Origin: Paroceanicella profunda
Lineage (GTDB): Bacteria > Pseudomonadota > Alphaproteobacteria > Rhodobacterales > Rhodobacteraceae
Direction: 5' to 3'
DNA: 64,000 nucleotides
Assembly (NCBI RefSeq): GCF_005887635.2
Contig: NZ_CP040822.1
Span: 62,001 to 126,000 of the forward strand
Positions 5,683 through 63,593 of this stretch are shown here, piece by piece. The first letter of the stretch is position 1, and each line of letters opens with the position of its first letter. The notes beneath the pieces were generated by a model that was not told the origin of the DNA, did no database searches, and saw only the letters and a program-made list of their open reading frames with translations. The position numbers were made by a program, and so were the translations under genes.

Positions 5683-5718
5683 TTCCCCTCGGGGGGGATC
5701 GACCCCCCGCTCGGGGAA
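5683..5718 (+). repeat. Nested palindromic intergenic element, copy A
   Basis: Outer arms TTCCCC (5683-5688) and GGGGAA (5713-5718) enclose an inner G-run/C-run stem with loop ATCGA. It lies between the 3' ends of the GT2 and flippase genes. Related copies are at 53610, 62815 and 63561 (inverted). The innermost pair is G:C here where the other copies have C:G. Confidence 0.75.
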
Positions 5719-5748
5719 CGACGCGCGCCGCGCGCGGGCCCCGCTCCG

Positions 5749-7248
5749 CTATCTGCGGCGCAGGACGCGGGCCGGGAGGCGGGCGGCGCGCGCCACCACC
5801 ACGGCCTCGATGCCGCCGGGCCGGCCGAAGACCCGCCACAGGCCCAGCGTGACGGCGAGAAACACCAGCATCGCTGCCCCGGCCAGCAGCGCGCAGGCCG
5901 CCACCAGCCCGACCCCGACCGGGATCCCCGCAAGCCAGGGCCCGCCCGCGAGCAGCACCCCGGCCATCGGCACCAGCGCCGCGGCAGGCCGCCAGACCGC
6001 CGCCGCCTGCCGGCCGAGCGACAGGCCGATCAGCCGGCGCACGATCAGCCCGGAGACCACGATCACCACGAGATTGGCCAGCGCGCGCGCCACGATCGCC
6101 CCCCAGATGCCGAACCACAGGATGCCCAGCAGCGTGGCCGGCAGCTTGAAGGCGAATTCCAGCACGATCTGCAGCGTGGTGTAGCGGGTGCGGTCGAGCA
6201 CCATGGCGAGCGACTGCATGGGGCGCACCGGCAGCGGCATCAGCCCGCAGAGCGCGAGCCAGGTGAGCATCGGGGCGACCTCGATCCACTGCGGCCCCAG
6301 CGCCAGCCGCACGGCGGGCCCGGCCATCAGCGCGAGGCCCAGCAGCAGCGGCCCGGTGACGAAGACCACGGCGTTCGAGGCCTTGCAATAGGCCGCGCCC
6401 AGCGCCTCCGGCGCATGGGCCAGCGGCGCGAACCCGGCCATGAGCGGGCGCAGCAGCGGCACCAGGATGGCCTGGTAGGGGATGGTGGCGAGATCATTGG
6501 CCAGCGAGAACCGGCCGAAGAGCCCGGGCTCCAGGAAGCGGCCGAGCATCAGCTTGTCCATCTGCCAGTTGATGGCCGAGAACAGCTGGTAGAGGCTGTT
6601 CCAGCCCACCATGTCGGCGAAGCGGTGCCACTCCGAGAGGGTGAGGCGCGGCCGGTGCGGGGCCAGCACGTAGGAGAGCGAACTGGTGACCACCGGGGTG
6701 GTGACCGTGCCCGCGGCAATGGCCCAGTAGCTGCCCGTGCCCAGCGCCAGGCCGGCCGCGACGAGGAGCGCCAGGGTCTTGCCGGTGATGTCGAGGGCGG
6801 CCTCGCGGCGGAAATCCAGCCGCTGCATGAACAGCACCATGCGCGGGCTCATCATGCCGCGCATCACCGGGCCGAGGCCGAGCACCAGCAGCAGCGCGGT
6901 CAGCCGCGGCTCCTGGTAGAGGGCGGCGACGGGCCAGGCCAGCGCGCCGAGCAGCGCCGCGATCACCAGCCCGCGCAGCAGGCCCAGGGTGAGCGCGGTG
7001 TCGAACATCGCCACGCTCGGGTCCGTCACCCGCACGAGGGACTGCATCAGCGGCAGTTCCAGCACCGCCTCCACGATCAGCACTACGGTGAGCGCCATGG
7101 CCACCAGCCCGAAATCCTGAGGGCCGAGCAGGCGGGCGAGAATGAGCAGGAGGAGAAAGTCGATGGCCTTGGAGGCGAGCTTCCCGGCCACGAGCCAGAT
7201 GCCGGCTCCGGCCGTCCGCTCGGACAGGCTGCGGGGATCATGTTTCAT
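5749..7248 (-). CDS. Wzx-type oligosaccharide flippase / polysaccharide transporter
   Basis: A 499-residue membrane protein of the polysaccharide-transporter (MATE-like) superfamily, expected to flip lipid-linked repeat units across the inner membrane. It begins KHDPRSLSERTAGAGIWLVA and shows about twelve to fourteen hydrophobic segments, such as FLLLLILARLLGPQDFGLVA, a sequence typical of this family. The ATG at 7248 is chosen because the roughly 100 residues that could extend it upstream are Arg/Pro-rich and unlike the family. It converges with the GT2 gene and follows the sulfotransferase in the same direction. Confidence 0.85.
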   Translation of the reverse strand: MKHDPRSLSERTAGAGIWLVAGKLASKAIDFLLLLILARLLGPQDFGLVAMALTVVLIVEAVLELPLMQSLVRVTDPSVAMFDTALTLGLLRGLVIAALLGALAWPVAALYQEPRLTALLLVLGLGPVMRGMMSPRMVLFMQRLDFRREAALDITGKTLALLVAAGLALGTGSYWAIAAGTVTTPVVTSSLSYVLAPHRPRLTLSEWHRFADMVGWNSLYQLFSAINWQMDKLMLGRFLEPGLFGRFSLANDLATIPYQAILVPLLRPLMAGFAPLAHAPEALGAAYCKASNAVVFVTGPLLLGLALMAGPAVRLALGPQWIEVAPMLTWLALCGLMPLPVRPMQSLAMVLDRTRYTTLQIVLEFAFKLPATLLGILWFGIWGAIVARALANLVVIVVSGLIVRRLIGLSLGRQAAAVWRPAAALVPMAGVLLAGGPWLAGIPVGVGLVAACALLAGAAMLVFLAVTLGLWRVFGRPGGIEAVVVARAARLPARVLRRR

Positions 7249-7605
7249 GGAATCACTTCGAACAAAGGGATCACGGGAACGGATGCGCCCGGGGGCGCGG
7301 GCCGACCGTCGGAAAATGCCGGGGCCGGGAACGGTGCGGGGTGGAAAGGACCGGCGCCGGGACCGGCCAGGCCTCCCCCCGGGGGGCAGCGACCGGCGCC
7401 GGGCACGCGGCCGGGATGACAGGCGGTGCGGATCAATTCCGGGTCGGGACCCCCCCTGCGCGACCGCTTCGCCGCACAGGACAACAGGCAGGGCCGCCAC
7501 GAGGGTCTCCACGGGGCGGCGCAGGGGCGCAACGCCCCCCGGCACATGGGGCAAACCTACACCCGATGATGCGCCGCAACCAAGGAGAAATGCCCGGGGT
7601 GGGGC
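7249..7605. other. 357-bp intergenic region with strong palindromes
   Basis: Spacer between the sulfotransferase and flippase genes, both on the minus strand. It contains two perfect CCGGCGCCGG palindromes (7351-7360, 7393-7402) on either side of CCCCCCGGGGGG (7375-7386), and a GGGGCG-CAA-CGCCCC hairpin (7524-7538). These could end the sulfotransferase transcript. No gene is supported. Confidence 0.5.
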
Positions 7606-8424
7606 TCAGGCGCTTTGCGCCACCCGGAGCCTGCGGAACGCGTTCAGCGTGCTCTCCGTGCGGACGATCGTGTTGTAGAACGCGCAATCAAAGCGATGCT
7701 CTTCGGAGATGGCGTCGATCTCGGCCTCGCTGAGGTCGCTGCGACTGATGATCTTCGCATCCTCTCCGGTCACGTTCTGGCGCGAGGCACGCACCTCGAT
7801 CTTCGCATCCATCGCATCGAACAACTGCTGAATGAAACCGTTCATCCGGTTCTGCGGGGCGAAGGCGAACTCCACCGGCTTGCCGCCGGGCGAGCGCAGC
7901 AGGCCGCCATCCATCGTCAGGCCACCGAAAAGCTGGCGCGACATCGGGCTGCCCCCGAACTGCTCACTGCGCCAGAAGCTCTCGAAATCGGGGAACCGCC
8001 GCCGAAAATCCTCATACCACGTATGAGCCGGGGAGGAATTGTAGTTGTAGTGGGACACCAGACGATCAATCGGATCGCGAATGACGCATGCGACAACAAT
8101 CCGTTCTTCCGGGATGTGATCCAAAATCTCATAAGTGCTGAAATGGCCCGTATAGAACTGGCACTTTTTATCACGGACGTCACCGAAATAGGAGCGGATA
8201 CTCCCTGGGATATCCTTGTGGTCGACATGGAATGATTTGAAGTGAGCCTTGAACGGCTCGTAGAAGGAGACTCCGGCAGTTTTTGGAACGTGACAGTGAA
8301 CAATGCAGTCAAAATATTTCTTATTTTTGAATGCGTCTCCAAGGCGCCAAGTGGATTCCATGAGGTACCGGGAAATTGACCTCCCATCTTCTTCCGATGT
8401 GAGATTATCTAGGGTTCTCTTCAT
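7606..8424 (-). CDS. Sulfotransferase family protein
   Basis: A 272-residue PAPS-dependent sulfotransferase. The 5'-phosphosulfate loop is CHVPKTAGVSF (P47-K48-T49) and the 3'-phosphate site is VIRDPIDRLVSHYNY (R116, S124). It would add sulfate to a carbohydrate or similar acceptor, fitting the adjacent polysaccharide genes. Codon third positions contain visibly more A/T than in neighbouring genes, especially at 7980-8424, and the upstream spacer is also AT-rich, which suggests later acquisition. It is a single-gene unit between the flippase and flgI. Confidence 0.82.
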   Translation of the reverse strand: MKRTLDNLTSEEDGRSISRYLMESTWRLGDAFKNKKYFDCIVHCHVPKTAGVSFYEPFKAHFKSFHVDHKDIPGSIRSYFGDVRDKKCQFYTGHFSTYEILDHIPEERIVVACVIRDPIDRLVSHYNYNSSPAHTWYEDFRRRFPDFESFWRSEQFGGSPMSRQLFGGLTMDGGLLRSPGGKPVEFAFAPQNRMNGFIQQLFDAMDAKIEVRASRQNVTGEDAKIISRSDLSEAEIDAISEEHRFDCAFYNTIVRTESTLNAFRRLRVAQSA

Positions 8425-8512
8425 TTTATCATGACCTCTTTCGGTATCAATTGATGATCCCGCAAGCCTACTGAAGGCATCATCCGCCTTTTCGCTACTT
8501 ACAATTACGCGG

Positions 8513-8526
8513 AGTGTCCAGACACT
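8513..8526. promoter_or_regulatory. Operator-like palindrome AGTGTC-CA-GACACT
   Basis: Perfect 6-bp arms around a 2-nt centre, about 90 bp upstream of the sulfotransferase start, within the AT-rich spacer 8425-8530. It could bind a dimeric regulator or be the remnant of an element end. Only the symmetry is seen. Confidence 0.35.
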
Positions 8527-8687
8527 TATGGGTCGGGTCCTGCTGACGCAGAGTGGTTGCGCAGGCCCTGCCAGAGCCGGATTGCGGCGCGTCCGCCACG
8601 GGCATCACAGGGCGCGCACGGCACCTGCCATTCCTGACGCTCCGGCATCCGTGCGGCCGTGCCGGCCCTTGCCCGGATCACGCCGGG

Positions 8688-9806
8688 CTATTGTACCACG
8701 AAATCGGCGTGGAGGGCGCCTGCGACCTTGATGGCCTTGAGGATGTCGATCATGTCGCGCGGCGAGATGCCGAGGGCGTTCAGGCCCTGGACGAGCTGGG
8801 AGAGCGAGACCGTGTCGTCGACCACCGCGAGCTGGGTGCCGGCATCGGCCTGGATCTCGGCATCCGTGCGCGGCACGACCACGGTGTCCCCGCCGCGGGT
8901 GAAGGGGTTGGGCTGCACGACGAGCGGCGTCTCGGAGATGCGCAGGGTCAGGTTGCCCTGGGCGATGGCCACGCGCGAGACGCGCACGTCATTGCCCAGA
9001 ACGATGGTTCCCGAGCGCTGGTCGACCACCACGCGGGCGCGCTGATCGGGGGTGACCTCGATGTTCTCGAGCCGGGCGATGAGCTGGGCCGGGGGCACGC
9101 CCGAGGCGGCGAGATCGAGCTGGACGGTGCCGGAATCCTGCATGCGGGCGATGTTGCGCCCCAGGCCGGTGTTGATGGCGGTGGCGATGCGGCTGGCGGT
9201 GGTGAAATCCGGGTCGCGCAGGGCGAGGCGCAGGTTTTCCATCGTGGCGAAGTTGAACGGGATCTCGCGTTCCACCCGGGCACCGCCGGGGATGGTGCCC
9301 GCGGTGGGCACGCCCTGGGTGACACTGGCGGCCGCGCCCTGTGCCACGACGCCGCCGGCCAGGATGCCGCCTTGCGCGACGGCGTAGATCTGGCCATCCG
9401 CGGCATTGAGCGGGGTCATGATCAGCGTGCCGCCGAGCAGGCTCTTCGCATCGCCGATCGCCGAGACGATCACGTCGATGCGCGAGCCGGCGCGGGCGAA
9501 GGGCGGCAGCGTGGCGGTGACCAGGACCGCGGCGACGTTCTTGGGGCGGAACTGCTCGCCCGAGACGTTGATGCCCAGCCGCTCCAGCAGGTTGGCGAGG
9601 GCTTCCTCGGTGAAGGGGGCGTTGCGCAGCCCGTCGCCGGTGCCGTTCAGCCCGACGATCAGCCCGTAGCCGACCAGGTCGTTGCCGCGCACGCCATCGA
9701 CTTCCACGAGGTCCTTGATCCGGGCCGAGGCGGCCTGGCCCGTGCCGGGGAAGGCGGCGGTCAGCAAGGCGCAGAGCGCCAGCAGGAAGCGGGCGGTGCG
9801 GGTCAT
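8688..9806 (-). CDS. flgI: Flagellar P-ring protein FlgI
   Basis: A 372-residue periplasmic protein that forms the P ring around the rod in the peptidoglycan layer. A signal peptide (TRTARFLLALCALLTAAFPGTGQAA) is followed by the family signature ARIKDLVEVDGVRGNDLVGY and GLNGTGDGL, and it ends with a typical AGALHADFVVQ tail. The ATG at 9806 is preferred to an in-frame ATG 30 bp upstream because the signal peptide starts there and a GAAAGG site precedes it. It is the last gene of the flgE-flgK-flgL-flgI unit, 91 bp after flgL. Confidence 0.97.
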   Translation of the reverse strand: MTRTARFLLALCALLTAAFPGTGQAASARIKDLVEVDGVRGNDLVGYGLIVGLNGTGDGLRNAPFTEEALANLLERLGINVSGEQFRPKNVAAVLVTATLPPFARAGSRIDVIVSAIGDAKSLLGGTLIMTPLNAADGQIYAVAQGGILAGGVVAQGAAASVTQGVPTAGTIPGGARVEREIPFNFATMENLRLALRDPDFTTASRIATAINTGLGRNIARMQDSGTVQLDLAASGVPPAQLIARLENIEVTPDQRARVVVDQRSGTIVLGNDVRVSRVAIAQGNLTLRISETPLVVQPNPFTRGGDTVVVPRTDAEIQADAGTQLAVVDDTVSLSQLVQGLNALGISPRDMIDILKAIKVAGALHADFVVQ

Positions 9807-9897
9807 GGGCAGGGCCTTTCGCGGCAGGCGGGGCAAGTGTCAGGCATGGGGGTCGGCGGTGTGGCAGGGGCCCGGGCGGGCGGGGGCATTGCGCGGA

Positions 9898-10905
9898 TCA
9901 CCTCAGGTAGAGGGTGAGCGACATGGAGGTGAGCCGCGAGGTGACGGTATAGAGCGAGGCGAGCTGGCTCTCGAGTTCGGCGAAGCGGGCCGCGGTCTCG
10001 TAGGGATCGACGGCGATCATCTCGGAGCGGGCCAGTTCGAGGGCGGATTGCTCCGCGGTGGTGCGGGTGGCCGCATCCTCGATCCGGGCTTCCTGGACGC
10101 CCAGCGCATTGCCGAGTTCGACCACGGCGAGGCGGGCGTTCACGATCACGGTGCCCGCGTCCTGCAGCAGCAGGGCCTGGGCGGGGGCATCGTCGGCGAA
10201 GTCGGATTCGACGGCCATCACCGCGGTGGCAAGCCCCTGCATGATCCGGCGCAGGGGCTCGGCATCGGCGCGCAGGGCGTAGTCGGCGTATTCGCCGTCC
10301 CCGGTTTCGACGGCCGGGGCGTTCTGGGTGGCGCCGCGATAGGCGGAGGTGGCGAAGCCGCCGGCGGGGTCGTTGAAATAGGTATCGATGGCCGCGAGGG
10401 CGGAGGTGGCGTCCGGGGCGGCATCGACCAGGGTGCGGATCTCGGCGATCATGTCTTCGGAGGAGATCAGCGGCGTGGTGTCGACCGCCGCGCCGGCGAA
10501 AAGGCTGCGCCCGGCGAAGGAGGCATTGAGCGTGCTGACGACCGAGCCGAGGCCGTTGCGCGCCTGGCCGGCCTCGGTTCGCGCGGCAATGAGGTCGTTG
10601 CGGCCGATCTCGGCGAGCAGGTCGATCCCGACATCGACGGTGGTGGCGGTGATGGTCTGCAGGCTCGACTGGGTGAGCGCCGAGCGCGAGGCGGCCAGCG
10701 ACAGCGTGTCGGTGCGCGCGGTGAGCCGCGCGATCCGGGTCTCGATGCCGTAGAGACGGCGCGGGTCGCCGCCCGTGGCCTCGAGGATGTCGGTCTTGCG
10801 GAAGGTGGTGAGCTCGGTGCCCGCCCGTTCCAGCGCGGCGGAGAGCGAGGCGTTGCTCCGCGACAGGCGCAGGTGGGAGAGCAGGTCGGGGGTGGTGCCG
10901 ATCAT
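9898..10905 (-). CDS. flgL: Flagellar hook-filament junction protein FlgL
   Basis: A 335-residue flagellin-fold protein, the second of the two junction proteins joining hook to filament. The N-terminal helix (TPDLLSHLRLSRSNASLSAA) and C-terminal helix (FAELESQLASLYTVTSRLTS) are the conserved flagellin-like coiled coil; the middle is variable. It starts 4 bp after the flgK stop, indicating translational coupling. Secreted by the flagellar export apparatus, so no signal peptide is expected or seen. Confidence 0.92.
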   Translation of the reverse strand: MIGTTPDLLSHLRLSRSNASLSAALERAGTELTTFRKTDILEATGGDPRRLYGIETRIARLTARTDTLSLAASRSALTQSSLQTITATTVDVGIDLLAEIGRNDLIAARTEAGQARNGLGSVVSTLNASFAGRSLFAGAAVDTTPLISSEDMIAEIRTLVDAAPDATSALAAIDTYFNDPAGGFATSAYRGATQNAPAVETGDGEYADYALRADAEPLRRIMQGLATAVMAVESDFADDAPAQALLLQDAGTVIVNARLAVVELGNALGVQEARIEDAATRTTAEQSALELARSEMIAVDPYETAARFAELESQLASLYTVTSRLTSMSLTLYLR

Positions 10906-10909
10906 GGTG

Positions 10910-12367
10910 TCAGATCTCCAACAGCTGCTGCAGCATTTCGTCGATGGCGGTGATCACCCGCGCGTTGGCGGCATAGGCGGTCTGGACCAGGAGCAGGTCC
11001 TGCATCTCCTGGTCGGTGTCCACGCCGGTGAGCGAGAGTTCGTGTTCGCGCAGGGCGCTGGCCTGGCCGGAGGCGTAGCTGGCCGTCGCGTCGCGCGTTG
11101 CCGCCTCGCCGAGGACCAGCGAGGAGAGTTCGGAGGCGAGGGTGGCGGCGGAGAAGGTGCCGCTCACCCCGGTGACGGCGCTGGCCGGGAGGCGTTCGCT
11201 GAACGCCGCGTCCATGGCGCGCAGCAGCGTATCGTCGCCCGACAGGCCCTGGGTGACGGCGTTGATGCCGTCGCGCAGGCGCCACAGGCTGCCGCCCCGC
11301 GACGGGTCGACCGCGGCATTCACCTCGATCCGCCCGGCGAGGCCGGTGGTGTCCAGCGGGTCCAGCGCACTGCCGGCGTCGGTGAACAGGCCGGGGTCGC
11401 CGACGGCGAGGGTGGTGTCGACCGCGGGGTCCTCGAAACGGGCGACGAGATCGGCGGCGAGCGCGTCGAGCCGGGCCGTCGCCTCCGGGAGGGCGACGTC
11501 GCGCAGCTCGAACGCGGCGGCGAGGCGGCCGCCCTCGAGCATGCCGGAGCCCTGGCCGATGTCCATGTCCCGGCCGTTGAGGGTGAGCCCGGAGAGCCCG
11601 CCGGAGGCCAGGGTCATGTCGGCGGTGATGGTGGCGGTGCGCTCGAAGCCCAGTTCAAAGGCGCGGCCGTCGAGCAGGGTGGCCCCGCCGGCGGAGTAGA
11701 GCGCCACCTGGTCATTGCGGCGCGCGACGCGCAGCGGGATGATCTCGTTCACCTCGTCGATCAGGCGCTGGCGCTCGTCCTCGAGGGCGGCGGTATCGGC
11801 GCGGGCGGAATTGCGCACCAGGATCTCGCGGTTGAGATCGGCGATGGCGGCAAGGTTGGTGTTCACGGTGGTCACGCCGGCGTCGATGGCGCCGTCGGCC
11901 TCCTCGCGCAGGGCGCGGGTTTCGGCGGCGGCGGAGTTCAGCGCGCCGGCATAGGCGCGGGCGGTCTCCAGCAGGGTGCCCTGCAGGGTGGTGGATTCAG
12001 GAGTGTCGCCGAGGGTGGCGAGAGCGGTGCCGAAGGCGGTGGCGCGGGTGGCGAGGGCGCCGTCGGCCCCGGGTTCGCCGATGACTTCGGCGAGGCGGGC
12101 GAGGGCGCTCGTGAGCAGGGCGCTGCCGCTTTCGAAGGCTTCGGCCCGGCGCCGGTCGGCGGTGGCGCGGAGGTCCGTGGCGCGCGAGATGCCGTCGACG
12201 CGCACCCCGCCGCCGGAATTGCCCACCATCCGCGAGGACAGCGCGACCGACCGTCGGGCGAAGCCGTCGGTCATCGCGTTCGCCACGTTGTCGGAGACCG
12301 CCCCGGCCCGCCGGGAACTGGCGACGAGGCCCGAGTAGGCGTTGTTGAGGGCCTGGCTGATGCTCAT
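10910..12367 (-). CDS. flgK: Flagellar hook-associated protein FlgK
   Basis: A 485-residue junction protein (HAP1). The N-terminus SISQALNNAYSGLVASSRRA with a later NDxVANA-type segment (SDNVANAMTDGFARR) and the C-terminal LLVQTAYAANARVITAIDEM are typical of rod/hook/HAP axial proteins. The start has a good AAGGAG ribosome site at 7 bp. It lies 37 bp after flgE and 4 bp before flgL. The central domain is variable and Ala/Thr-rich. Confidence 0.93.
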   Translation of the reverse strand: MSISQALNNAYSGLVASSRRAGAVSDNVANAMTDGFARRSVALSSRMVGNSGGGVRVDGISRATDLRATADRRRAEAFESGSALLTSALARLAEVIGEPGADGALATRATAFGTALATLGDTPESTTLQGTLLETARAYAGALNSAAAETRALREEADGAIDAGVTTVNTNLAAIADLNREILVRNSARADTAALEDERQRLIDEVNEIIPLRVARRNDQVALYSAGGATLLDGRAFELGFERTATITADMTLASGGLSGLTLNGRDMDIGQGSGMLEGGRLAAAFELRDVALPEATARLDALAADLVARFEDPAVDTTLAVGDPGLFTDAGSALDPLDTTGLAGRIEVNAAVDPSRGGSLWRLRDGINAVTQGLSGDDTLLRAMDAAFSERLPASAVTGVSGTFSAATLASELSSLVLGEAATRDATASYASGQASALREHELSLTGVDTDQEMQDLLLVQTAYAANARVITAIDEMLQQLLEI

Positions 12368-12404
12368 CGCTCTGCTCCTTCAGGGACGCGGGCCGGCGGG
12401 CCGG

Positions 12405-13694: not shown

Positions 13695-13784
13695 GTCTTT
13701 CCCTTCGGCGGAAGCAAACGGCTCTCTGATGTGGCATGACCCCAGCGGGCCCGGCTCTGCCTTCCATCTCTGCCCCCCGAGCCC

Positions 13785-13799: not shown

Positions 13800-13836
13800 C
13801 CGTGAGGACGCGGGCCGGTGGGGAAATGCATCGCAT

Positions 13837-51457: not shown

Positions 51458-53548
51458 ATGTCCACCCGCGCCAGCTTCAGCCCCGCCATGCTCGCCCAGC
51501 CCACGGTGATGCTGGCCCTCGCCCTGATGGCGATCATCGTGATGATGATCCTGCCGATGCCGGCCTGGGTGCTCGATGTCGGCCTCACCGCCTCCTTCGG
51601 CCTCGCCATCCTGATCTTCACCGTGACGCTGTTCATCCAGCGCCCGCTCGACTTCTCCGCCTTCCCCACCATCCTGCTCGCCTCGCTGATGCTGCGGCTC
51701 TCGCTCAACGTGAGCTCGACCAAGCTCATCATCGGCGAGGGGCACAACGGGCCCCAGGCCGCGGGCGGGGTGATCGAGGGCTTCGCCATGTTCATCATGG
51801 GCGGCTCGGTGGGGCTGGGCCTCGTGGTGTTCGGCGTGCTGCTGATCGTGAACTTCATCGTGATCACCAAGGGTGCGGGCCGCATGGCCGAGGTGGGCGC
51901 GCGCTTCGCGCTCGACGGCATGCCGGGCAAGCAGCTCGCCATCGACAGCGACATGGCCGCCGGCGCCATCACCCACGAGCAGGCCCGCGAGCGGCGCAAG
52001 ACCGAGCAGGAGGAGACCACCTTCTTCGGCTCGCTCGACGGCGCGTCGAAATTCGTGAAGGGCGACGCGGTGGCGGGGCTGCTCATCACCCTGCTGAACC
52101 TGCTCGTGGGCCTCTCCATGGGCATCCTCGTGCACGGCATGCCGGCGGGCGAGGCCTTCGAGACCTATGCCATCCTCACCGTGGGCGACGGGCTCGTCAC
52201 CCAGATCCCGGCGGTGATCATCTCCATCGCCGCCGCCCTGCTGCTCTCGAAGGGCGGCGCGCTGGGAACGGCGGACAAGGCGCTCTTCGGCCAGCTCGGC
52301 CGCTACCCGCTGGCGCTCGCCACCGTGGCCGGGCTGATGGGGCTGTTCGGGCTGATGCCGGGCCTGCCGGTGCTGCCCTTCGTCACCGGCGCCGCCATCC
52401 TGGGCGGCATCGCCTGGATCTCCGCCGGCCGGCAGGAGCGGGCGAAGACCGCCGAGCGGGTGGAGACCGAGGCCCCCGCCCCCGCGCCCGCGCGCCGGCT
52501 GGGCGACATGCTCGACCTCGACGAGATCCACCTCGAGTTCGCCCCCGACCTGGTCGCCACCGTGATGGACGAGGCCACCGGGCTCGACGGGCGCATCCTC
52601 AACATGCGCAACCACATCGCCCAGACCTGGGGGCTGATCATCCCGGAGATCCGCCTCACCGACAACGCGCTCCTGCCGCGCGGCACCTATGCCATCCGCA
52701 TCCAGGGGGTGGAGATGGCGCGCGCCCGGCTCAAGACCGGCTTCGTGCTGGTGCTGCTCAACGAGGCGATGGGCGAGGCGCCGCCGGGCGAGGACGTGGC
52801 CGAGCCGGTCTACGGCGCGCCCGCGCGCTGGATCGCGGAGGCCGACCAGGAGGAGGCGGCGCTCAACGGGCTCTCGGTGGTCACCCCGGTGGAGGTGGTG
52901 GCCACGCACCTGATGGAGGTGCTCAAGCTCAACTTCGGCCGGCTGTTCAGCCGCCGCACCCTGCGCAAGCTGCTCGAGGAGTTCACCCGCGTCTCCGACA
53001 CCGCCCGGGCGGAGGCGAACCGGCGCATCCTCGACGAGTTCATCCCCGACCGGGTGCCGGTGGACCTGCTGCAGCAGGTGCTGCGGCTGCTGCTGGAGGA
53101 GCGGGTGTCGATCCGCAACCTGCCGCTGATCCTGGAGGCGATCGCCGAGGCCAAGACCGTGGTCAACCATACCGAGGCGATCTGCGAGCATGTGCGCCAC
53201 CGGCTGGGCTTCCAGCTGGTCGCCGAGCTGATGGAGCCGGACGGGGCGCTGCCGCTGATCCAGCTCGCGCCCGAATGGGAGGAGACCTTCCTCGCCCACC
53301 AGATCGACGGGGCGGACAGCGGCGTGGACGTCGCGCTGCCGCCCACGGACTTCAACCGGCTGGCGCGGTCGGTGGCCGAGAAGCTGGCCAAGGCCGGCGC
53401 GGACGGGCGCTACCCGGCGATCGCCACCTCCACCCGGCGGCGGCGCTTCCTGCGCACGGTCCTGTCGGCCAAGGGGATCCGGAACCCGGTGCTCTCCTTC
53501 GAGGAGATCGGCACCGAGGTGAAGCCGGCCCTGCTCGGAGTGGCCTGA
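51458..53548 (+). CDS. flhA: Flagellar export gate protein FlhA
   Basis: A 696-residue export-gate subunit. About eight N-terminal membrane helices cover residues 1-330, with the FHIPEP-type loop region (IQRPLDFSAFPTILLASLML, RLSLNVSSTKLIIGEGH). The cytoplasmic domain runs to the end and includes IRNLPLILEAIAEAKTV. It starts 13 bp after sltF. The terminal LLGVA is short, as in other FlhA. Confidence 0.96.
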   Translation: MSTRASFSPAMLAQPTVMLALALMAIIVMMILPMPAWVLDVGLTASFGLAILIFTVTLFIQRPLDFSAFPTILLASLMLRLSLNVSSTKLIIGEGHNGPQAAGGVIEGFAMFIMGGSVGLGLVVFGVLLIVNFIVITKGAGRMAEVGARFALDGMPGKQLAIDSDMAAGAITHEQARERRKTEQEETTFFGSLDGASKFVKGDAVAGLLITLLNLLVGLSMGILVHGMPAGEAFETYAILTVGDGLVTQIPAVIISIAAALLLSKGGALGTADKALFGQLGRYPLALATVAGLMGLFGLMPGLPVLPFVTGAAILGGIAWISAGRQERAKTAERVETEAPAPAPARRLGDMLDLDEIHLEFAPDLVATVMDEATGLDGRILNMRNHIAQTWGLIIPEIRLTDNALLPRGTYAIRIQGVEMARARLKTGFVLVLLNEAMGEAPPGEDVAEPVYGAPARWIAEADQEEAALNGLSVVTPVEVVATHLMEVLKLNFGRLFSRRTLRKLLEEFTRVSDTARAEANRRILDEFIPDRVPVDLLQQVLRLLLEERVSIRNLPLILEAIAEAKTVVNHTEAICEHVRHRLGFQLVAELMEPDGALPLIQLAPEWEETFLAHQIDGADSGVDVALPPTDFNRLARSVAEKLAKAGADGRYPAIATSTRRRRFLRTVLSAKGIRNPVLSFEEIGTEVKPALLGVA

Positions 53549-53609: not shown

Positions 53610-53644
53610 TTCTCCTCGGGGGGCATCGAGCCCCCGTCGGAGAA
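53610..53644 (+). repeat. Nested palindromic element, copy B
   Basis: Outer arms TTCTCC/GGAGAA differ from copy A by a paired C-to-T and G-to-A change that preserves the stem. The inner stem is GGGGGC-ATCGA-GCCCCC. A further hairpin GGCCCGC-AGC-GCGGGCC follows at 53646-53662. It lies inside the operon, 61 bp after flhA and 52 bp before fliR, so it could tune expression between them. Confidence 0.78.
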
Positions 53645-53696
53645 CGGCCCGCAGCGCGGGCCGCAGCGCCCCGCCCCCGGCCGGGACAGCGGGACG

Positions 53697-54527
53697 ATGA
53701 CCGGGCTGGACGGGCTCATCGGCCTCTCCGCCGCACTGGAGGCGCTGGGCATCGCCGGCGGCAGCGGCCCGGCGATGGTGTTCACCTTCTTCGCCGTGTT
53801 CATGCGGGTGGGGGCGGTGGTCTCGCTGCTGCCGGGGATCGGCGAGCAGACCATGTCGATGCGCACCCGGCTGTGCGTGGCGCTGGCGCTCAGTGCCGCG
53901 CTCTGGCCGATGCTGGCGGAGCACGCGCACCTGCCGGGCGCGGACTGGGCCCCGGCTGCGCCGCAGCTCTTCCTCGTGCTGCTGGCCGAGACCGTGGCCG
54001 GGCTGGTGCTGGGGATCGCACTGCGGCTGATGCTCGTCGTGCTGCAGCTCGCGGGTTCGATCGCCGCCCAGTCCACCGCGATTTCCCAGATCGCCGGCGC
54101 CGGCGTGACCCCGGACCCGATGCCGGCGATGGGCAACATCCTGGTGATGGCCGGAATCGCCCTCGCCCTCACCCTCGGGCTGCACGTGAAGGCGGCGGTC
54201 ATGATCGCCTGGTCCTACGAGATGCTGCCCTTCGGCCGCTTCCCAGACGGGGCGGACATGGCCAGCTGGGGCACGGCGAGCGTGTCGCGCGGCTTCGCCC
54301 TCGCCCTGGCGCTGGCCGGGCCCTTCGTGCTGCTGTCCTTCCTCTACAACCTCACGCTCGGCGCCATCAACCGGGCGATGCCGCAGCTCATGGTGGCCTT
54401 CGTGGGGGCACCCTTCATCACCGGGGCGGGGCTGGTGCTGCTGATGCTCGCCGGCCCGGTGATGCTGCGCATCTGGGTGGGGGCGCTCGACGACGTGCTG
54501 GCCGATCCGCTGGCGGTGCCCCGATGA
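53697..54527 (+). CDS. fliR: Flagellar export gate protein FliR
   Basis: A 276-residue membrane protein, the single-copy subunit of the export-gate core. Hydrophobic segments include MVFTFFAVFMRVGAVVSLLP, LFLVLLAETVAGLVLGIALR and GFALALALAGPFVLLSFLYN (parts). It lies 148 bp after flhA, an unusual gap, and overlaps flhB by 4 bp. Confidence 0.93.
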   Translation: MTGLDGLIGLSAALEALGIAGGSGPAMVFTFFAVFMRVGAVVSLLPGIGEQTMSMRTRLCVALALSAALWPMLAEHAHLPGADWAPAAPQLFLVLLAETVAGLVLGIALRLMLVVLQLAGSIAAQSTAISQIAGAGVTPDPMPAMGNILVMAGIALALTLGLHVKAAVMIAWSYEMLPFGRFPDGADMASWGTASVSRGFALALALAGPFVLLSFLYNLTLGAINRAMPQLMVAFVGAPFITGAGLVLLMLAGPVMLRIWVGALDDVLADPLAVPR

Positions 54528-55615: not shown

Positions 55616-55618
55616 GGC

Positions 55619-56053: not shown

Positions 56054-56064
56054 TAGTGCGTTAG
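56050..56064 (+). promoter_or_regulatory. CtrA-like box overlapping the fliJ-like stop
   Basis: TTAA-TAGTGCG-TTAG, one mismatch from TTAA-N7-TTAA, at the very end of the flagellar operon. It is 52 bp ahead of the small membrane gene at 56117. Confidence 0.5.
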
Positions 56065-56077
56065 GGTGTGCACCCTA
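56062..56077. promoter_or_regulatory. Palindrome TAGGGTG-TG-CACCCTA
   Basis: Perfect 7-bp arms with a 2-nt centre, overlapping the right half of the CtrA-like box. Overlap would let a dimeric regulator compete with CtrA; it could also be a weak transcript hairpin. Confidence 0.42.
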
Positions 56078-56116
56078 GGGTTGTTGTACTCGTCCGGTAT
56101 GCCTGGAGTGACACAG

Positions 56117-56386
56117 ATGCACGCGTTCCCCTTCCGGCTGTTGCTGAGTGCTTATGGCAGCGCTGCCATCCTGGCCCTCGCAAGCTGGTGGGTCGGGCTG
56201 CCCGGTCTGGCGGCCGCGCTGCTGTTCTGGCTGTCGGGGGCCGGGTTCGTCTTCCTGCTGCCGGTGGTCTTTCCCGACATCTGCCCGCCGCGCCGGGCCC
56301 GCAGCGCCGAGGATGGCGCGCCGCCCCTGGTGCCCCGGGGGGGCTGGGCGCCGCAGTCCGAGCCGGCTCACAGGCCCGAGGGCTGA
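56117..56386 (+). CDS. Small membrane protein of unknown function
   Basis: An 89-residue protein with two hydrophobic segments (LLLSAYGSAAILALASWWVG and GLAAALLFWLSGAGFVFLLP; parts) and a polar C-terminal tail of about 35 residues. ATG at 56117 has GGAG 8 bp upstream; ATG at 56099 is the alternative. I do not recognise a family. The CtrA-like box upstream suggests co-expression with flagellar genes. Confidence 0.55.
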   Translation: MHAFPFRLLLSAYGSAAILALASWWVGLPGLAAALLFWLSGAGFVFLLPVVFPDICPPRRARSAEDGAPPLVPRGGWAPQSEPAHRPEG

Positions 56387-56414
56387 GCCCGGGCGTCCGC
56401 TCCCGTCCGGCGTC

Positions 56415-57362: not shown

Positions 57363-57541
57363 TGCCCCGCCTTCCTTCCGCCCCGCTCCGCGAAATCATA
57401 GAGCGGAACGCGGGGGGCGGGCCAGCCCGTGCGGGCCGGCCGGGCGCGCCCGATCCCGTGCGGCGCCCGGTTGCGGTTGATTGCGCGGGGCCGTCGGGTG
57501 GTCCCGCGCAGGGCAGGTTGTCGGCCCCGCGCGCGAGACGG

Positions 57542-60500
57542 TCAGTCGGTTCCCGCCGGTGCCGGATCGGGCGATGCGGCGGGGCCGGGTGCGCCGGTGA
57601 CGACCCGGCGCGGCAGGCCCTCGCCGCCCGGCTGCAGCCGCGAGAGATACTCCGACAGGATGAAGGAGATCTGGTCGAGCCGGGCGCGCAGCTCGGGATC
57701 GGGCGGGGGCGCGGTGACGCGCCCGAGCTCGTTGAGCGCGGTGCGCATGCCGCCCAGCATCAGGCGCAGGTTGCCGATCTCCCCGAAGAACCGGGTTTCC
57801 ATGCGCGCGATGTCCTGCGCGGCGGAGGGAGCTTCCGCCGACGGGCCGAGCGCCGCGGCGAGGGCCGGAGCGAGGGCCGCGGCCAACGCCTCGGGGTCGC
57901 CGCCTTCGGCCGGCGCCGTGTCCGCGAGGGCCCGGGCCAGCCCATCGAGGCGGGTTTCGAACCGCGCGAGGGCGGCCTCGACGGAGGCGGTGGTGTCCTC
58001 CCCGGGTGCGGGGCGGGCTCCGGCCAGCTCCTCCGCCAGGCCGTCAAACCGGGCTTCGACCCGGGCGAGACCCTCGGCGAAAGTGTCCGATCCGCCGGCT
58101 GCCGGCGCTGCCGCAGCGGCGGTGGCGAAGCTGTCCGCCAGGCTTTCGAGCCGGCTGTCGAGCCGGGCGAGGGTTTCTTCGAGCCCCGAGAGGTCGGGTG
58201 CCGCGCCGCGGCCTTCCTCCCCCCCACCGGTTTGCAGGTGTTCGGCCACGGCCTGCAGCGAGAGCACGATGCCCTGGAGCCGCGCGCGTTCGGGGCCGAT
58301 GCTCTGGCCGACCACCGCCGCGCGGGTGGCGAGGCTCTGCAGGGTCTTCTGCATCCGGTCGATGCGGCGGGTGAGCGGCTCGAGTGTATCTTCCGCGCTG
58401 ACGGGCAGGGCCATGATCCGGGTGGAGAGCGGTTCGAGGCGGGCCTCCGCTTCGGCCTGTCCGGCGCGGATCTCCTCGGCCAGCGCCGTGCGCAGGCTGT
58501 CGAGATCGGGCGGCGGCGGCAGGGCGCTCGCCAGGGTGGATATCTCGCGGCCGAGGGCGGCCAGGGGCGAGGCGAGCTCGGCGGCCACCCCCGGCGCGAG
58601 GCCGGACAGTGCGTCGGAGAGCTGGGCGGAGAGGGTTTCGAGCCGGATTTCCAGCGGGGCCAGGTCCACCGGATCGGGCGTGGCCTGTGCCGTCAGCGCG
58701 CCGAGCCGGCCGAGGCCTTCCTCGAACCCCGTTGCGAGGTCCTGTTTCAGGGCCGCGAGATCGGGCGCTTCGGGCAGCGGCCGCGCGGCGAGGGCCTCGA
58801 TGCGCTCGGTGAGCGCCGTGAGCCGCGATTGCATGACCTCGACATGGCGGGCCATGGCCTTCTCGCTCAGCGGGGGGTCCGACCGGCGGGAGATTGCGGC
58901 ATCGCCGAAGCGCATCAGCGCATGCTCGATGACCCCGAGACGCTCGTCGAGGTCGACCGTGCGGCTCTGGCGATCCTCCTCGCGGGCGAGCAGGCGCGAG
59001 AGGCTTTCCTCCAGCTCCGCGGCATGGGTGTCGAGGCGGCGCTGCGTGTCGCGCAGGCTGGCGGCGAGGCGCCCGGCATCCTCCTGCCCGGAGGGCTGGG
59101 CGAGGGCGGCGAGATGCGTCTCGATCGCATCCAGCCGGCGCGCGACCCCCTCGGAGAGGGAGGGCGGCGCCGGGGGCAGGGCCGCGATCACGGCCGGGGC
59201 GAGCTCGGCGGCCAGCCGGGCGGAGAGGCTGTCCGCCAGGGCCTCGGCGAGGGTGCGGGTGAGGGTCTCGGGATCGGCAGGTTCCGCCGGCGCGGGCAAG
59301 GCCTCCGCGACCGCGGCCTCGACCCGGGCGGTGAGCAGGCCTGCGAGCGCTTCGGAATCCGGCGCCGGGGGCAGGGCCGCGACCAGCGCCGGCGCGAGGG
59401 TTGCGGCCAGCGTGGGGCCGAGGGTGGAAGCCAGGGCTTCGGCCAGGGCCTCGGGGGCCATCGGTTCCGCCGGCCCGGGCAGGGCGGCGAGGGCGGCGTC
59501 GAGGCGGGCACCGAGGGCTTCGGAGAGGGCGTCCGCGTCCGGGCCTGCGGGGAGGCTGGCGGTGAGGGCGGGGAGGAGGGCAGCCGTGAGGGCTTCTGCC
59601 AGGGCCTCGGGGGCCATCGGTTCCGCGGGTGCGGGGAGGGCGGCGAGGGCTGCGTCGAGGCGGGCGCCGAGGGCTTCGGAGAGGGCGTCCGCGTCCGGGC
59701 CTGCGGGGAGGCTGGCGGTGAGGGCGGGGAGGAGGGCAGCCGTGAGGGCTTCTGCCAGGGCCTCGGGGGCCATCGGTTCCGCGGGTGCGGGGAGGGCGGC
59801 GAGGGCTGCGTCGAGGCGGGCGCCGAGGGCTTCGGAGAGGGCGTCCGCGTCCGGGCCTGCGGGGAGGCTGGCGGTGAGGGCGGGGAGGAGGGCAGCCGTG
59901 AGGGCTTCTGCCAGGGCCTCGGGGGCCATCGGTTCCGCGGGTGCGGGCAGGGCGGCGAGGGCTGCGTCGAGGCGGGTGCCGAGGGTTTCGGAGAGGGCGT
60001 CCGTGTCCGGGCCTGCGGGGAGGCTGGCGGTGAGCAGCGGCGCGAGGGCTTCGGCGAGTGCGGTGACCCGGGCCGTGTCGGTTTCGGCCGCGCCATCGGG
60101 AGCGGGGAAATGCGTGGCCAGCGCCGCGGCGAGCTCGCTGGCCAGGGTTGCCGCGTCGACCGGCGGATCGGAGGGCGCGGAGAGCGCCTCCTGCAGCGCC
60201 GCGAGCCGCGGGTCGAGCCCGGCGATGGCCGCGGCCACGCTCTCGGACAGCGCCTGCGGGTCGGTCTCGCCGATCCGGGCCTCGATGGCTTCGAGGCGCT
60301 CCACGAGCCGGGCGCCTTCCTCGGAGGCCGGGACGGCGACGGGGGCGGGGATGATCGCGCGCACCCGTTCGGCCACGCCGGAGAGGGCGGCGTCGACCAG
60401 TTCGGTGATCCGCCCGGCGGTGAGCCGGGCCGCGGCGATGGCATAGCCCGCGTCGAGCACCGAGCGCACGCCGGGCCCGGCGGCGGTGCGTGCCGCATCC

Positions 60501-60871
60501 TGCAGGGCGCCGACGAGGATCAGCGCCTGGTCGTCGAGCGAGGGCAGGGGCTCGCCCGGCGGCGAGAGCGGTTCGACATGCACCGCGCCGAACCCGGCCG
60601 ATGCGCCCAGTGCCTCCGCGAGACCGGCGGCAAAGGCCTCCTCCCCTTCCTCCGGCGCGGCCTGCACGCCGTAGGAGAAGGCGCCGAGCCGGAAGACCTG
60701 GCCGGCCACGCGTTCGCAGATCGCTTCCAGCAGGGCCGTCTCGAGGCCGGGGTCCCGGGCGCCGGCGACCGCGTTCGGGTCAAGTTCTATGCGATGGGTG
60801 ATCAGGCCGGCACGGGCAAGCCGCTCGGCCATGTCTCCGGTCATGTCTTCGGGAGATCCGCTTCCGTCCAT
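57542..60871 (-). CDS. Large Ala/Leu/Glu-rich helical protein with 52-residue repeats
   Basis: A 1109-residue protein of unknown function. Residues 1-170 look globular (RLARAGLITHRIELDPNAVA, FRLGAFSYGVQAAPEEGEEA); the rest is almost entirely helical, with coiled-coil-like Leu/Ala patterns. Residues about 289-480 hold 52-residue repeats beginning D-[AT]-D-A-L-S-E. ATG at 60871 is chosen since the sequence upstream to 61048 is Arg/Pro-rich. No membrane helix is evident. It is isolated between the HTH gene and divergent UDP-glucose dehydrogenase. A structural or scaffold role is a guess. Confidence 0.6.
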   Translation of the reverse strand: MDGSGSPEDMTGDMAERLARAGLITHRIELDPNAVAGARDPGLETALLEAICERVAGQVFRLGAFSYGVQAAPEEGEEAFAAGLAEALGASAGFGAVHVEPLSPPGEPLPSLDDQALILVGALQDAARTAAGPGVRSVLDAGYAIAAARLTAGRITELVDAALSGVAERVRAIIPAPVAVPASEEGARLVERLEAIEARIGETDPQALSESVAAAIAGLDPRLAALQEALSAPSDPPVDAATLASELAAALATHFPAPDGAAETDTARVTALAEALAPLLTASLPAGPDTDALSETLGTRLDAALAALPAPAEPMAPEALAEALTAALLPALTASLPAGPDADALSEALGARLDAALAALPAPAEPMAPEALAEALTAALLPALTASLPAGPDADALSEALGARLDAALAALPAPAEPMAPEALAEALTAALLPALTASLPAGPDADALSEALGARLDAALAALPGPAEPMAPEALAEALASTLGPTLAATLAPALVAALPPAPDSEALAGLLTARVEAAVAEALPAPAEPADPETLTRTLAEALADSLSARLAAELAPAVIAALPPAPPSLSEGVARRLDAIETHLAALAQPSGQEDAGRLAASLRDTQRRLDTHAAELEESLSRLLAREEDRQSRTVDLDERLGVIEHALMRFGDAAISRRSDPPLSEKAMARHVEVMQSRLTALTERIEALAARPLPEAPDLAALKQDLATGFEEGLGRLGALTAQATPDPVDLAPLEIRLETLSAQLSDALSGLAPGVAAELASPLAALGREISTLASALPPPPDLDSLRTALAEEIRAGQAEAEARLEPLSTRIMALPVSAEDTLEPLTRRIDRMQKTLQSLATRAAVVGQSIGPERARLQGIVLSLQAVAEHLQTGGGEEGRGAAPDLSGLEETLARLDSRLESLADSFATAAAAAPAAGGSDTFAEGLARVEARFDGLAEELAGARPAPGEDTTASVEAALARFETRLDGLARALADTAPAEGGDPEALAAALAPALAAALGPSAEAPSAAQDIARMETRFFGEIGNLRLMLGGMRTALNELGRVTAPPPDPELRARLDQISFILSEYLSRLQPGGEGLPRRVVTGAPGPAASPDPAPAGTD
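59432..60007 (-). repeat. 156-bp in-frame tandem repeat array
   Basis: Three full copies (60007-59852, 59851-59696, 59695-59540) plus a partial fourth to about 59432. By reading, copies two and three appear identical at nucleotide level and copy one differs at a few bases, so the expansion is recent. Each copy is 52 codons. Confidence 0.9.
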
Positions 60872-61239
60872 GCTCCGCTCCGCTCTGGGGTCCGGGACCC
60901 GGGGCGCCCGCCGCCCCCGGAGCCGCGCACCCCGCCGCGGCCCGACACCGGACCTCGGGGCGTTCTGCCCTGGGAGCCGGGCAGGGCCGACTCGAAATGC
61001 GGTCTCTCCCCGACCAGGCCGGGGGCGCCGCGGGAGGGACGCTAGCAAGCAATTGCTGACGATCCATTAACCTCGACCGGCCCCCGGCTCCTGCGCCGCG
61101 CACGGGTTCCGTTCGCGCCGCGAACCGGATAAACAGGCCGCGGAAGCCTCAGGACCCCCCGGTGCATCAGCAGGATGCGGGCCCGGGGGCCGGCCGGAGC
61201 CCCGGTGCGCGGGGTCTCCCCAGAACAAGGATGACGGCC
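60872..61239. other. 368-bp divergent spacer
   Basis: Between the repeat protein and UDP-glucose dehydrogenase. The likely promoter zone is the AT-rich patch 61041-61075, containing the 10-bp palindrome AGCAATTGCT (61048-61057) and a lone TTAACC. No gene is supported. Confidence 0.5.
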
Positions 61240-62556
61240 ATGCGCGTGGCAATGATCGGTACCGGCTATGTGGGCCTGGTCTCGGGGGTGTGTTTCTCGG
61301 ATTTCGGCCATGACGTGACCTGCGTGGACACGAATGCCGAGAAGATCGCCCAGCTCACCCGTGGCGAGGTGCCGATCTTCGAGCCCGGGCTGGAGGCGCT
61401 GCTGGCCAAGAACGTCGCCGCCGGGCGGCTGAGCTTCACCGGCGATCTCGCCAGCGCGGTGGCCGGGGCGGAGGCGGTGTTCATCGCGGTGGGCACGCCC
61501 ACGCGGCGCGGCGACGGCCATGCCGACCTCACCTACGTCTATGCCGCCGCGCGCGAGGTGGCCGCGGCGCTCTCGGGCTACACGGTGGTGGTGACGAAAT
61601 CGACCGTGCCGGTGGGCACCAACCGCGAGGTGGCACGCATCATCGCCGAGGCGAACCCGGAGGCCGATTTCGACGTGGCCTCCAACCCCGAGTTCCTGCG
61701 CGAGGGGGCGGCCATCGACGATTTCATGCGCCCGGACCGGGTGGTGGTGGGTGTCGAGAGCGCGCGGGCCCGCGAGGTGATGGGCGCGCTCTACCGGCCG
61801 CTCTACCTGCGCGAGGCGCCGATGGTCTATACCGGGCTCGAGAGCGCGGAGATGATCAAGTATGCCGCGAACGCCTTCCTCGCCACCAAGATCACCTTCA
61901 TCAACGAGATCGCGGCGCTGTGCGAGAAGGTGGGCGCCGACGTGAAGGCGGTCTCCAAGGGCATGGGGCTGGACGGGCGCATCGGCAACAAGTTCCTGCA
62001 TGCCGGGCCCGGCTATGGCGGCTCCTGCTTTCCCAAGGACACCAAGGCGCTGGCGCGCATCGGCCAGGACCATGCCTCGCCGATGGAGATCGTGGAGACG
62101 GTGATCGCGGTGAACGAGGCGCGCAAGCGGGCGATGGTCGACAAGGTGCTCGACCTGTGCGGCGGCCGGGTGGCGAACAAGGTGATCGCGGTGTTCGGCG
62201 TGACCTTCAAGCCCAACACGGACGACATGCGCGACAGCCCCTCGCTGACCATCGTGCCGGCGCTGGTGGGCGCGGGGGCCACGGTGCGGGTGGTCGACCC
62301 GGAGGGGCGCAAGGAGGGCGAGGCGCTCTTGCCCGGCGTCACCTGGATGGACGATCCCTACGAAGCGGCCTCGGGCGCGGTGGCCGCCGTCATCCTCACC
62401 GAGTGGAACGAGTTCCGCGCCCTCGATCTCGCGCGGCTGGCCGGTGCCATGGCCGAGCCGCGGCTCGCGGACCTGCGCAACATCTATTCCCCCGAGGACG
62501 CCGCCCGCGCCGGGCTCTCCTATGTCTCGGTGGGCCGGGCGCCGGTGGGGGCCTGA
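61240..62556 (+). CDS. ugd: UDP-glucose 6-dehydrogenase
   Basis: A 438-residue enzyme that oxidises UDP-glucose to UDP-glucuronate with two NAD+. It has the NAD-binding motif IGTGYVGLVSG (residues 7-17), EFLREGAAIDDFMRPDRVV, the active-site region MIKYAANAFLATKI (K207) and catalytic C263 (GPGYGGSCFPKDTKAL). ATG at 61240 has AAGG 9 bp upstream; ATG at 61231 abuts it and is less likely. It supplies glucuronate for acidic polysaccharides, matching the EPS genes at the other end. Confidence 0.95.
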   Translation: MRVAMIGTGYVGLVSGVCFSDFGHDVTCVDTNAEKIAQLTRGEVPIFEPGLEALLAKNVAAGRLSFTGDLASAVAGAEAVFIAVGTPTRRGDGHADLTYVYAAAREVAAALSGYTVVVTKSTVPVGTNREVARIIAEANPEADFDVASNPEFLREGAAIDDFMRPDRVVVGVESARAREVMGALYRPLYLREAPMVYTGLESAEMIKYAANAFLATKITFINEIAALCEKVGADVKAVSKGMGLDGRIGNKFLHAGPGYGGSCFPKDTKALARIGQDHASPMEIVETVIAVNEARKRAMVDKVLDLCGGRVANKVIAVFGVTFKPNTDDMRDSPSLTIVPALVGAGATVRVVDPEGRKEGEALLPGVTWMDDPYEAASGAVAAVILTEWNEFRALDLARLAGAMAEPRLADLRNIYSPEDAARAGLSYVSVGRAPVGA

Positions 62557-62978
62557 GGCGGGGCGCGACCGGGCCGTCGCCTGCTGCCTTGCTGCCGGTC
62601 CGGAGGGCGGGGAACGGTGCGAGGCGTTCGCGGCACCCTGCGTCTCGGGAGGCTGCCCGGGGCTTCGGGGCGCCCGCCAGGGCCGTCCGGCCGCCGGGGG
62701 GGAGACCGCCAGGGGCCGCGCCGGGGGGGTAATTCCGGCGGCCCCGGGCGATCTTGCCGCCGGGGCCGCCGATCCGGCCGTCTGCAGTCCCGCAGTCCGG
62801 CCGTTGCGCGGGAACTCCCCTTGGGGGGCATTGAGCCCCCGCGCGGGGAGCGGCCCGTCTTCGCGTGCCGGTCCCGGCCCCGGCCGGTCGCCCGGGGCGC
62901 GCCTGCCTCCCCCGGCCCCTTCCGCGGGGGCCGGCCCGTTCTCCCGGCGCCCGAGGCGCCCGATCCGGAGCCCTTGCC
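62557..62978. other. 422-bp spacer between ugd and DUF3291 gene
   Basis: Very G+C-rich with no AT-rich promoter core that I can recognise. It contains palindromic element copy C (62815-62850). No gene is supported. Confidence 0.5.
62815..62850 (+). repeat. Nested palindromic element, copy C
   Basis: Outer arms CTCCCC/GGGGAG (T-to-C paired with A-to-G relative to copy A) around GGGGGC-ATTGA-GCCCCC. It is followed by CGGCCCG, as in copy B. It lies 128 bp upstream of the DUF3291 gene. Confidence 0.75.
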
Positions 62979-63524
62979 ATGGCCCTCGCGCTCTACACGT
63001 TCGGACAGTTCGCCCGCCCCTCGGCGGACCCGGCGAATGACGGGTTCCACGACCGCAACGACCGCAACTTCCGCGCCGCGGAGCACAGCTCCGGCTTTCT
63101 CGGCCGCTCCGGCTATCCGGACGAGCCCGGCCCCGCGCCCTGGGGCGTGCAGGTCTACCCGCGCTTTCACGTGGAGAACGGCGACGGCTGGGCCCCCTCC
63201 ACCCTGTCGCTCTGGGAGAGCCCGGAGGCGGCGATGGCCTTCACCTGGCATTCGGAGATCCACCGCGAGGCGCTGCGCCGTGGGCGGGAGTGGTTCGTGA
63301 AACCCGCCTGGCCGCCCTACGTGTTCTGGTGGGTGGCCGAGGGCCATGTCCCGGACTGGGCGGAGGGTGTTGCCCGTTTCGAGCAGCTGGCCGACCAGGG
63401 GCCGGGCCCGCAGGCCTTCGACCACGCCGCGCTCTTCGATGCGGACGGCCAGCCCCGCCGGCAGGACCCTGCCATCCTCGCCCGGCACGTGGCCGCGAAC
63501 GCCACCCGCCTCGCCGGGCTCTGA
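62979..63524 (+). CDS. DUF3291 family protein
   Basis: A 181-residue protein resembling DUF3291, a family of small ferredoxin-fold-like or monooxygenase-like proteins. It starts ALALYTFGQFARPSADPAND; core segments are STLSLWESPEAAMAFTWHSE and AWPPYVFWWVAEGHVPDWAE. No signal peptide or cofactor motif is visible. Element copies C and D lie on either side in opposite orientation. Confidence 0.75.
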   Translation: MALALYTFGQFARPSADPANDGFHDRNDRNFRAAEHSSGFLGRSGYPDEPGPAPWGVQVYPRFHVENGDGWAPSTLSLWESPEAAMAFTWHSEIHREALRRGREWFVKPAWPPYVFWWVAEGHVPDWAEGVARFEQLADQGPGPQAFDHAALFDADGQPRRQDPAILARHVAANATRLAGL

Positions 63525-63560
63525 GCGCAACAGGGCCGTGCAGGCCGGCCCCGCCGGCCC

Positions 63561-63593
63561 TTCCCCGACGGGGCTCGATGCCCCCGAGGGGAA
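63561..63593 (-). repeat. Nested palindromic element, copy D (inverted)
   Basis: On the minus strand it reads TTCCCC, TC, GGGGGC-ATCGA-GCCCC, GTC, GGGGAA, the same as the consensus with a slightly shorter inner stem. It lies 37 bp after the DUF3291 stop, in the spacer to the convergent phosphomannomutase. Confidence 0.75.

Follow-up and report, generated by a model that had tools for sequence, protein, structure and literature searches.

Four similar nested palindromes lie between genes in the window, a stretch of 64,000 nucleotides from plasmid pD4M1D (137,471 bp) of the deep-sea bacterium Paraoceanicella profunda D4M1, and raise the question of whether they belong to a family whose folded form is maintained by selection, and what such a family may do. 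The genome of this strain has 5,468,583 bp, comprising a chromosome of 4,039,866 bp and six plasmids (PMC7002103). The initial annotation described the four copies as a REP-like or RNA-structured element with three compensatory stem changes, an observation which is right and understated; the element is a dispersed, strand-polar, intergenic unit of approximately 62 nt whose copies keep their positions between two species. All four copies are found where the annotation placed them (Table 1), as matches to covariance model R2 with E-values from 2.5e-11 to 2.6e-08, while the next-best match in the window has an E-value of 0.65, leaving these four as its sole strong matches; the model comprises 28 copies, with window copies A and C included and B and D left out. 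The window hairpins fold 2.9 to 4.0 SD below their own shuffles on either strand, and the CGGCCCG extension described as common to copies B and C falls in the 5' arm of the second hairpin segment. The FlhA of Oceanicella sp. SM1341 is 97% identical to that encoded beside copy B. The inner core alone (up to 3 mismatches) is not significant in the window, with 4 occurrences against 2.39 expected and 19 of 100 shuffles reaching 4; the genome-wide count carries the weight.

Table 1. Coordinates of the element in the window (64,000-nucleotide numbering) and the Sphingomonadales plasmid loci carrying it
Feature	Position or locus	Strand	Basis and remarks
Copy A, hairpin 1	5683..5718	+ as written; proposed folding strand is the opposite	Model match; ortholog with compensatory closing pair
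Copy A, second-hairpin segment	5719..5744	+	Offsets +17..+42 after the loop, from the conservation profile of 41 ortholog pairs
Copy B, hairpin 1	53610..53644	+	Between flhA (51458-53548) and fliR (53697-54527); model match, ortholog
Copy B, second-hairpin segment	53645..53671	+	Starts CGGCCCGCAGCGCGGGCC; conservation profile
Copy C, hairpin 1	62815..62850	+	Between UDP-glucose/GDP-mannose dehydrogenase gene and DUF3291 gene; model match, ortholog
Copy C, second-hairpin segment	62851..62876	+	Conservation profile
Copy D, hairpin 1, inverted	63560..63594	-	Behind DUF3291 gene (stop 63524); model match, ortholog
Copy D, second-hairpin segment	63533..63558	-	Conservation profile
Sphingomonadales plasmid loci	L391, L392, L393, L395-L398, L400-L403		One copy each; L391, L393 and L395 near-identical

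The genome-wide scan proposed in the initial annotation yields 53 clear copies, in excess over the controls. The pattern GGGGSNTYGANSCCC has 51 matches per strand against 2 in a backwards control, and GGGGCATYGAGCCCC has 50 against none. Hairpins of the form GGGGC-N5-GCCCC number 120 against 69 in the control, and 50 places carry the loop ATYGA, which means that one loop accounts for the excess of 51. The clear copies derive from 59 model places (E <= 10, one per place), of which the 53 with the loop were kept; among the six set aside, those at 281867 and 3026774 (both ATCGG) and 573669 (ATCTA) resemble variants and the other three resemble chance matches. The copies are spread over the chromosome and the plasmids with a nearly invariant 17-bp core, and they are mostly single, with some inverted pairs. 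For the sister genome, 65 of 73 matches were used.

Each element consists of two hairpins. Hairpin 1 is built from a lower stem that covaries, a small internal loop and the nearly invariant tip GGGGGC-ATYGA-GCCCCC, while the second hairpin, located 3' of it on the ATYGA strand, is more variable. In the profile of 41 ortholog pairs, hairpin 1, which reaches from 15 nt upstream of the loop to 16 nt downstream, has an identity of 0.80-1.0, falling to 0.63-0.68 just beyond its 5' edge; on the 3' side identity is mostly 0.78-0.98 as far as +42, with dips to about 0.7, and approximately 0.6-0.75 beyond. The lower stems fall into groups (TTCCCC.., AGCGCC.., ACGTCGG.. and ACGTCCC..) which are separated by paired changes, and the whole 62-nt units are alike within subfamilies and set in unlike flanks (median identity 0.90 to the best own paralog, 0.63 for the 5' flank). 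Read on the opposite strand, the tip has a GA/GA internal loop, a GGGGGC stem and the pentaloop UCRAU, and the two outer letters of the loop change together (C-G, once G-C, some U.G).

The three compensations, which the initial annotation took as a sign of selection on the folded form, are real substitutions, as the orthologs in the sister genome hold the other pair (copy A, G-C versus C-G; copy B, T-A versus C-G; copy C, C-G versus T-A). Selection on the fold is supported by the double changes between orthologs and by covariation. Among 526 stem pairs in the 41 ortholog pairs, whose members are not independent of each other, 487 are the same, 15 have changed on both sides from one Watson-Crick pair to another, 3 are other doubles and 21 are one-sided, whereas independent change of the two arms would give about 1.5 doubles of any kind; this is the strongest evidence for the fold, because these pairs were not chosen for pairing. 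The covariation score is 0.455 against 0.094 for shuffled alignments (reached by none of 500 shuffles; 0.05-0.12 for slid structures), and in 28 distinct hairpins 97.6% of cells pair and 58 cells have changed on both sides against 17.9 when shuffled, but the score and the paired fraction are inflated by pre-selection, as the 28 aligned hairpins come from a class of 37 selected because at least 5 of the 6 lower-stem pairs form in a single register, with 60 rows outside this class. Two weaker measures of covariation are reached by 12 and 5 of 500 shuffles.

Orthologs were paired by BLAST of the flanks (same orientation, more than 300 bits), which linked 42 own places with the sister genome; dropping one chance model place leaves 39 clear copies and two ATCGG variants. 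As same orientation was a condition of pairing, it is no independent result. Pair 1735415 does not satisfy the rule and was added manually, and its main matches agree. In total, 45 of the 53 clear copies have a sister partner by flank match (39 by rule, 3 in printed matches and 3 from a region look-up). Among the 14 clear copies outside the pairs, those at 155193, 1401239 and 1736088 do have a partner in the same orientation, while 1894220 matches an inverted flank only; when two own regions were compared with the sister genome, partners turned up for 3 of the 4 elements there that lacked a listed one. Own copies resemble their best paralog (median 0.90) about as closely as their ortholog (0.92), and in just 19 of 38 cases is the ortholog the top match in the sister genome, which leaves room for past dispersal or gene conversion.

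With respect to genes, 52 of the 53 own copies are called intergenic, mostly at gene 3' ends; location relative to stop codons was among the checks proposed in the initial annotation. Convergent genes flank 23 of the copies and divergent genes 3, while 26 lie in tandem gaps (14 in one orientation and 12 in the other) and one falls within a called ORF; genes were called by a codon-usage script, and some boundaries as well as the in-ORF copy may be wrong. Gaps with an element (22 convergent, 24 tandem and 3 divergent of 49) differ from the 107 without (16, 62 and 29, respectively), convergent gaps being favoured (Fisher p 1e-4) and divergent ones avoided (Fisher p 0.002). Orientation in tandem gaps is not biased in the own genome and not clearly so in the sister genome (18 versus 11, p 0.26). 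In relatives, orientation in tandem gaps is 26 versus 10 (p 0.011), 58 of 71 intergenic copies lie behind a same-strand gene (4 more of 75 are called inside ORFs), and the loop lies 19-40 nt past the stop codon in 37 of these 58. A GGRGG stretch 5' of the element is common in relatives, though not universal. No common function was found among adjacent genes in the 20 scanned of 27 close genes listed, and such functionally unrelated neighbours suit a general border role.

The mismatches of hairpin 1 distinguish the two strands. On the strand as written, isolated stem mismatches in the own and sister genomes (85 distinct hairpins of 117, chosen mainly by core) are A.C or C.A in 18 cases versus G.T or T.G in 4 (p 0.004), and differences between orthologs give 11 versus 2 (p 0.02). 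The relatives give 12 versus 0, in hairpins mostly found by an opposite-strand structure model which can itself favour A.C over G.U; 80 of 89 loci gave a hairpin by rule (9 dropped), for 87 hairpins, 75 of them with distinct arms. By eye, A.C or C.A occurs in 5 of the 11 printed plasmid loci and G.T in none, while L402 and L403 carry G.G, which points the opposite way. Read from the opposite strand, A.C turns into a G.U wobble and the common TC/TC internal loop into GA/GA. That A.C is far commoner than G.U as written suggests that the opposite strand is the one selected to fold. That strand gives the better fold in 88 of 99 and in 52 of 75 hairpins, by an energy gap that includes constant loop terms; both strands fold well, and the four window copies have no consistent strand preference. 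In relatives, the element usually follows a gene to which the better-folding strand is antisense. In the second hairpin, mismatches (T.G 9 versus A.C or C.A 11) have no clear polarity.

Beyond the two species, matches at E <= 0.01 occur in at least 34 of 198 genomes of the family, the own genome included; one other genome has at least 27 copies and most have one to nine, all counts being lower bounds since 34 candidates were scored per genome. In a class-wide model search (17 candidates per genome, strict filters), the own genome is the only one of 385 genomes with a match at E <= 0.001; given this strictness and the copies on Sphingomonadales plasmids, absence elsewhere is not shown by that search. 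BLAST of a Sphingomonas copy against plasmids retrieves 31 records, and the element is also present on plasmids of Thioclava, Gemmobacter and Mesorhizobium, while a longer copy from relative G011 has no match among plasmids. In all 11 opened Sphingomonadales plasmid records the element lies approximately 60 nt 3' of a DUF2493/SLOG gene, a setting favoured by the search itself, as most of these records were found by likeness to one copy. In ten printed records it lies, by eye, beyond a hairpin with a T-rich tail (terminator-like in the two scanned), and is thus probably outside that mRNA. Several Rhodobacterales (L290/L341, L285, L293 and others) have a recurrent terminator-like string, CTCCGGCGGGAGTATTT, 3' of the element. 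Relative G016 has a single element together with Y1 transposase matches. A 42-nt match to the Sphingomonas copy with 95% identity is located at 3800-3841 of MT839809.1, a 4-kb record from human faecal samples that is named 'Bacteriophage sp.' and lacks annotation.

The element is a genuine REP-like family: its fold is under selection, its loop is almost fixed and it is strand-polar. Its function is tentatively assigned: the family may be a new REP-like one serving as a folded gene-end mark, in which a putative host factor would recognise the folded tip on one strand, as RNA or single-stranded DNA, and the hairpin would mark and insulate the 3' border of the gene, limiting transcription that runs through and/or protecting RNA ends. 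It is possible, with less confidence, that the mark amounts to a single-strand structure code shared by Rhodobacterales and Sphingomonadales plasmids, where the UCRAU pentaloop and the GA/GA internal loop on an antisense fold would be read by a putative RNA- or ssDNA-binding protein setting gene 3' borders.

Alternatively, though this is somewhat doubtful, the element may be a REP-like non-autonomous mobile element, whose folded single strand would be recognised by a putative enzyme and whose copies would survive mainly behind genes as other insertions were purged. Mobility would agree with alike units in unlike flanks, with the presence on plasmids of other orders, with the inverted pairs, and with the strand-specific mismatch pattern, as TnpA-REP binds only one strand of its REP (PMC8266576). 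Against it, no Y1 transposase (PF01797) is found in the own and sister genomes or in 12 chosen element-bearing genomes (5 of 14 control genomes are positive), no empty site is seen in the sister genome for the 45 of 53 own copies traced to a partner, and compensations have taken place within orthologous copies.

A sense-strand 3'-UTR motif bound by an RNA-binding protein is unlikely. Such a motif could explain the position soon after the stop codon in relatives and the conserved loop and internal loop, but the sense-strand mismatches in the own and sister genomes are mostly A.C rather than G.U, and the Sphingomonadales copies come after a terminator-like hairpin. Of the two descriptions in the initial annotation, 'RNA-structured' is possible, with the reservation that the better-folding strand is antisense to the gene usually preceding it in relatives.

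The element shares with intrinsic terminators a strong GC hairpin placed at gene 3' ends, and its enrichment between convergent genes would suit a bidirectional one; this reading is nonetheless rather improbable, and the identity was rejected for lack of a T tract. As written, 0-1 T occurs in the 10 nt following hairpin 1 in 42 of 53 own copies, and on the opposite strand at least 4 T follow it in 7 of 53; a terminator scan at copy B found none. Also unlike terminators, the element has a fixed loop, left unexplained by termination, and a separate terminator-like hairpin with a T-rich tail adjoins it, before or after, in the three relatives scanned.

A duplex-DNA site for a chromosome-organising or regulatory protein, with an incidental lower stem, would suit the nearly invariant 17-bp core dispersed over chromosome and plasmids, but is improbable, since covariation accompanies the sequence changes of the lower stem, mismatches are strand-specific and no long strand runs are seen by eye on the chromosome. 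A replication-strand (primosome-site-like) reading was likewise set aside, as the copies, judged by eye, switch strand along the chromosome with no long runs. Paired changes with no function might also arise when imperfect palindromes are corrected by template switching, which can alter both arms in one event, but this is highly improbable here, because such correction would be expected to remove the internal loop, which is still present, and could preserve neither the loop ATYGA nor the placement.

The statement of the initial annotation that no description of the element was known agrees with Rfam 15 and literature listings (subscription papers being largely outside their scope), where none was found. 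The window has no match in Rfam 15, eight loci have one match of 24.3 bits versus 71 required, and the literature listings contain no paper on the core strings and nothing relevant for a terminator string or cuckoo RNA. The opposite strand reads GGGGG-YUCRAUG-CCCCC, like the T arm of tRNA, the T loop having a UCR turn and A; the outer letters of a T loop are not known to vary as a pair, and their paired variation here (copy A) weakens this reading. The integron attC site forms a bottom-strand hairpin used by the integrase IntI, and the likeness is limited to an antisense-strand fold after stop codons.

As a description, the term 'REP-like' stands, the element being dispersed, intergenic, hairpin-forming, polar and placed at gene ends, while membership of REPs proper does not. 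Like the REPs of RAYT/TnpA-REP systems, it consists of dispersed intergenic hairpins in high copy number; REP of E. coli has a conserved internal mismatch, and REP recognition is strand-specific, with the loop or mismatch counting (PMC2817692, PMC8266576). By these tests it is not a RAYT-type REP, as the genomes tested lack a Y1 transposase and the hairpin lacks a GT(A/G)G head. In relatives, the 5' flank as written is GGRGG, where T never occurs in more than 4 of 75 at any position, and on the opposite strand, where the head needs C(T/C)AC 3' of the hairpin, A occurs in at most 12 of 75 at each offset from 21 to 27. REPs usually exceed 100 copies (PMC2817692), above the 53 clear copies found here. 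In BIME clusters orientation alternates; the present copies are mostly single, with some inverted pairs. With no RAYT transposase in the genomes tested, positions maintained between species and a fold preserved by compensation, this REP-like family allows function to be tested apart from mobility, and its strand polarity prompts the question of which factor would read a hairpin formed opposite the gene. Br-REP1 and Br-REP2 of Bradyrhizobium japonicum are palindromes in many intergenic regions, and Br-REP1 was found in 3' UTRs of convergent genes, where three stem-loops adjoin one another and complementary small RNAs occur (PMC5082802). Unlike the present element, their consensus, as printed there, is by eye without the GGGGGCATCGAGCCCCC core, and the genera named are Bradyrhizobium and Rhodopseudomonas; as intergenic palindromes of alphaproteobacteria, they are the closest precedent seen.
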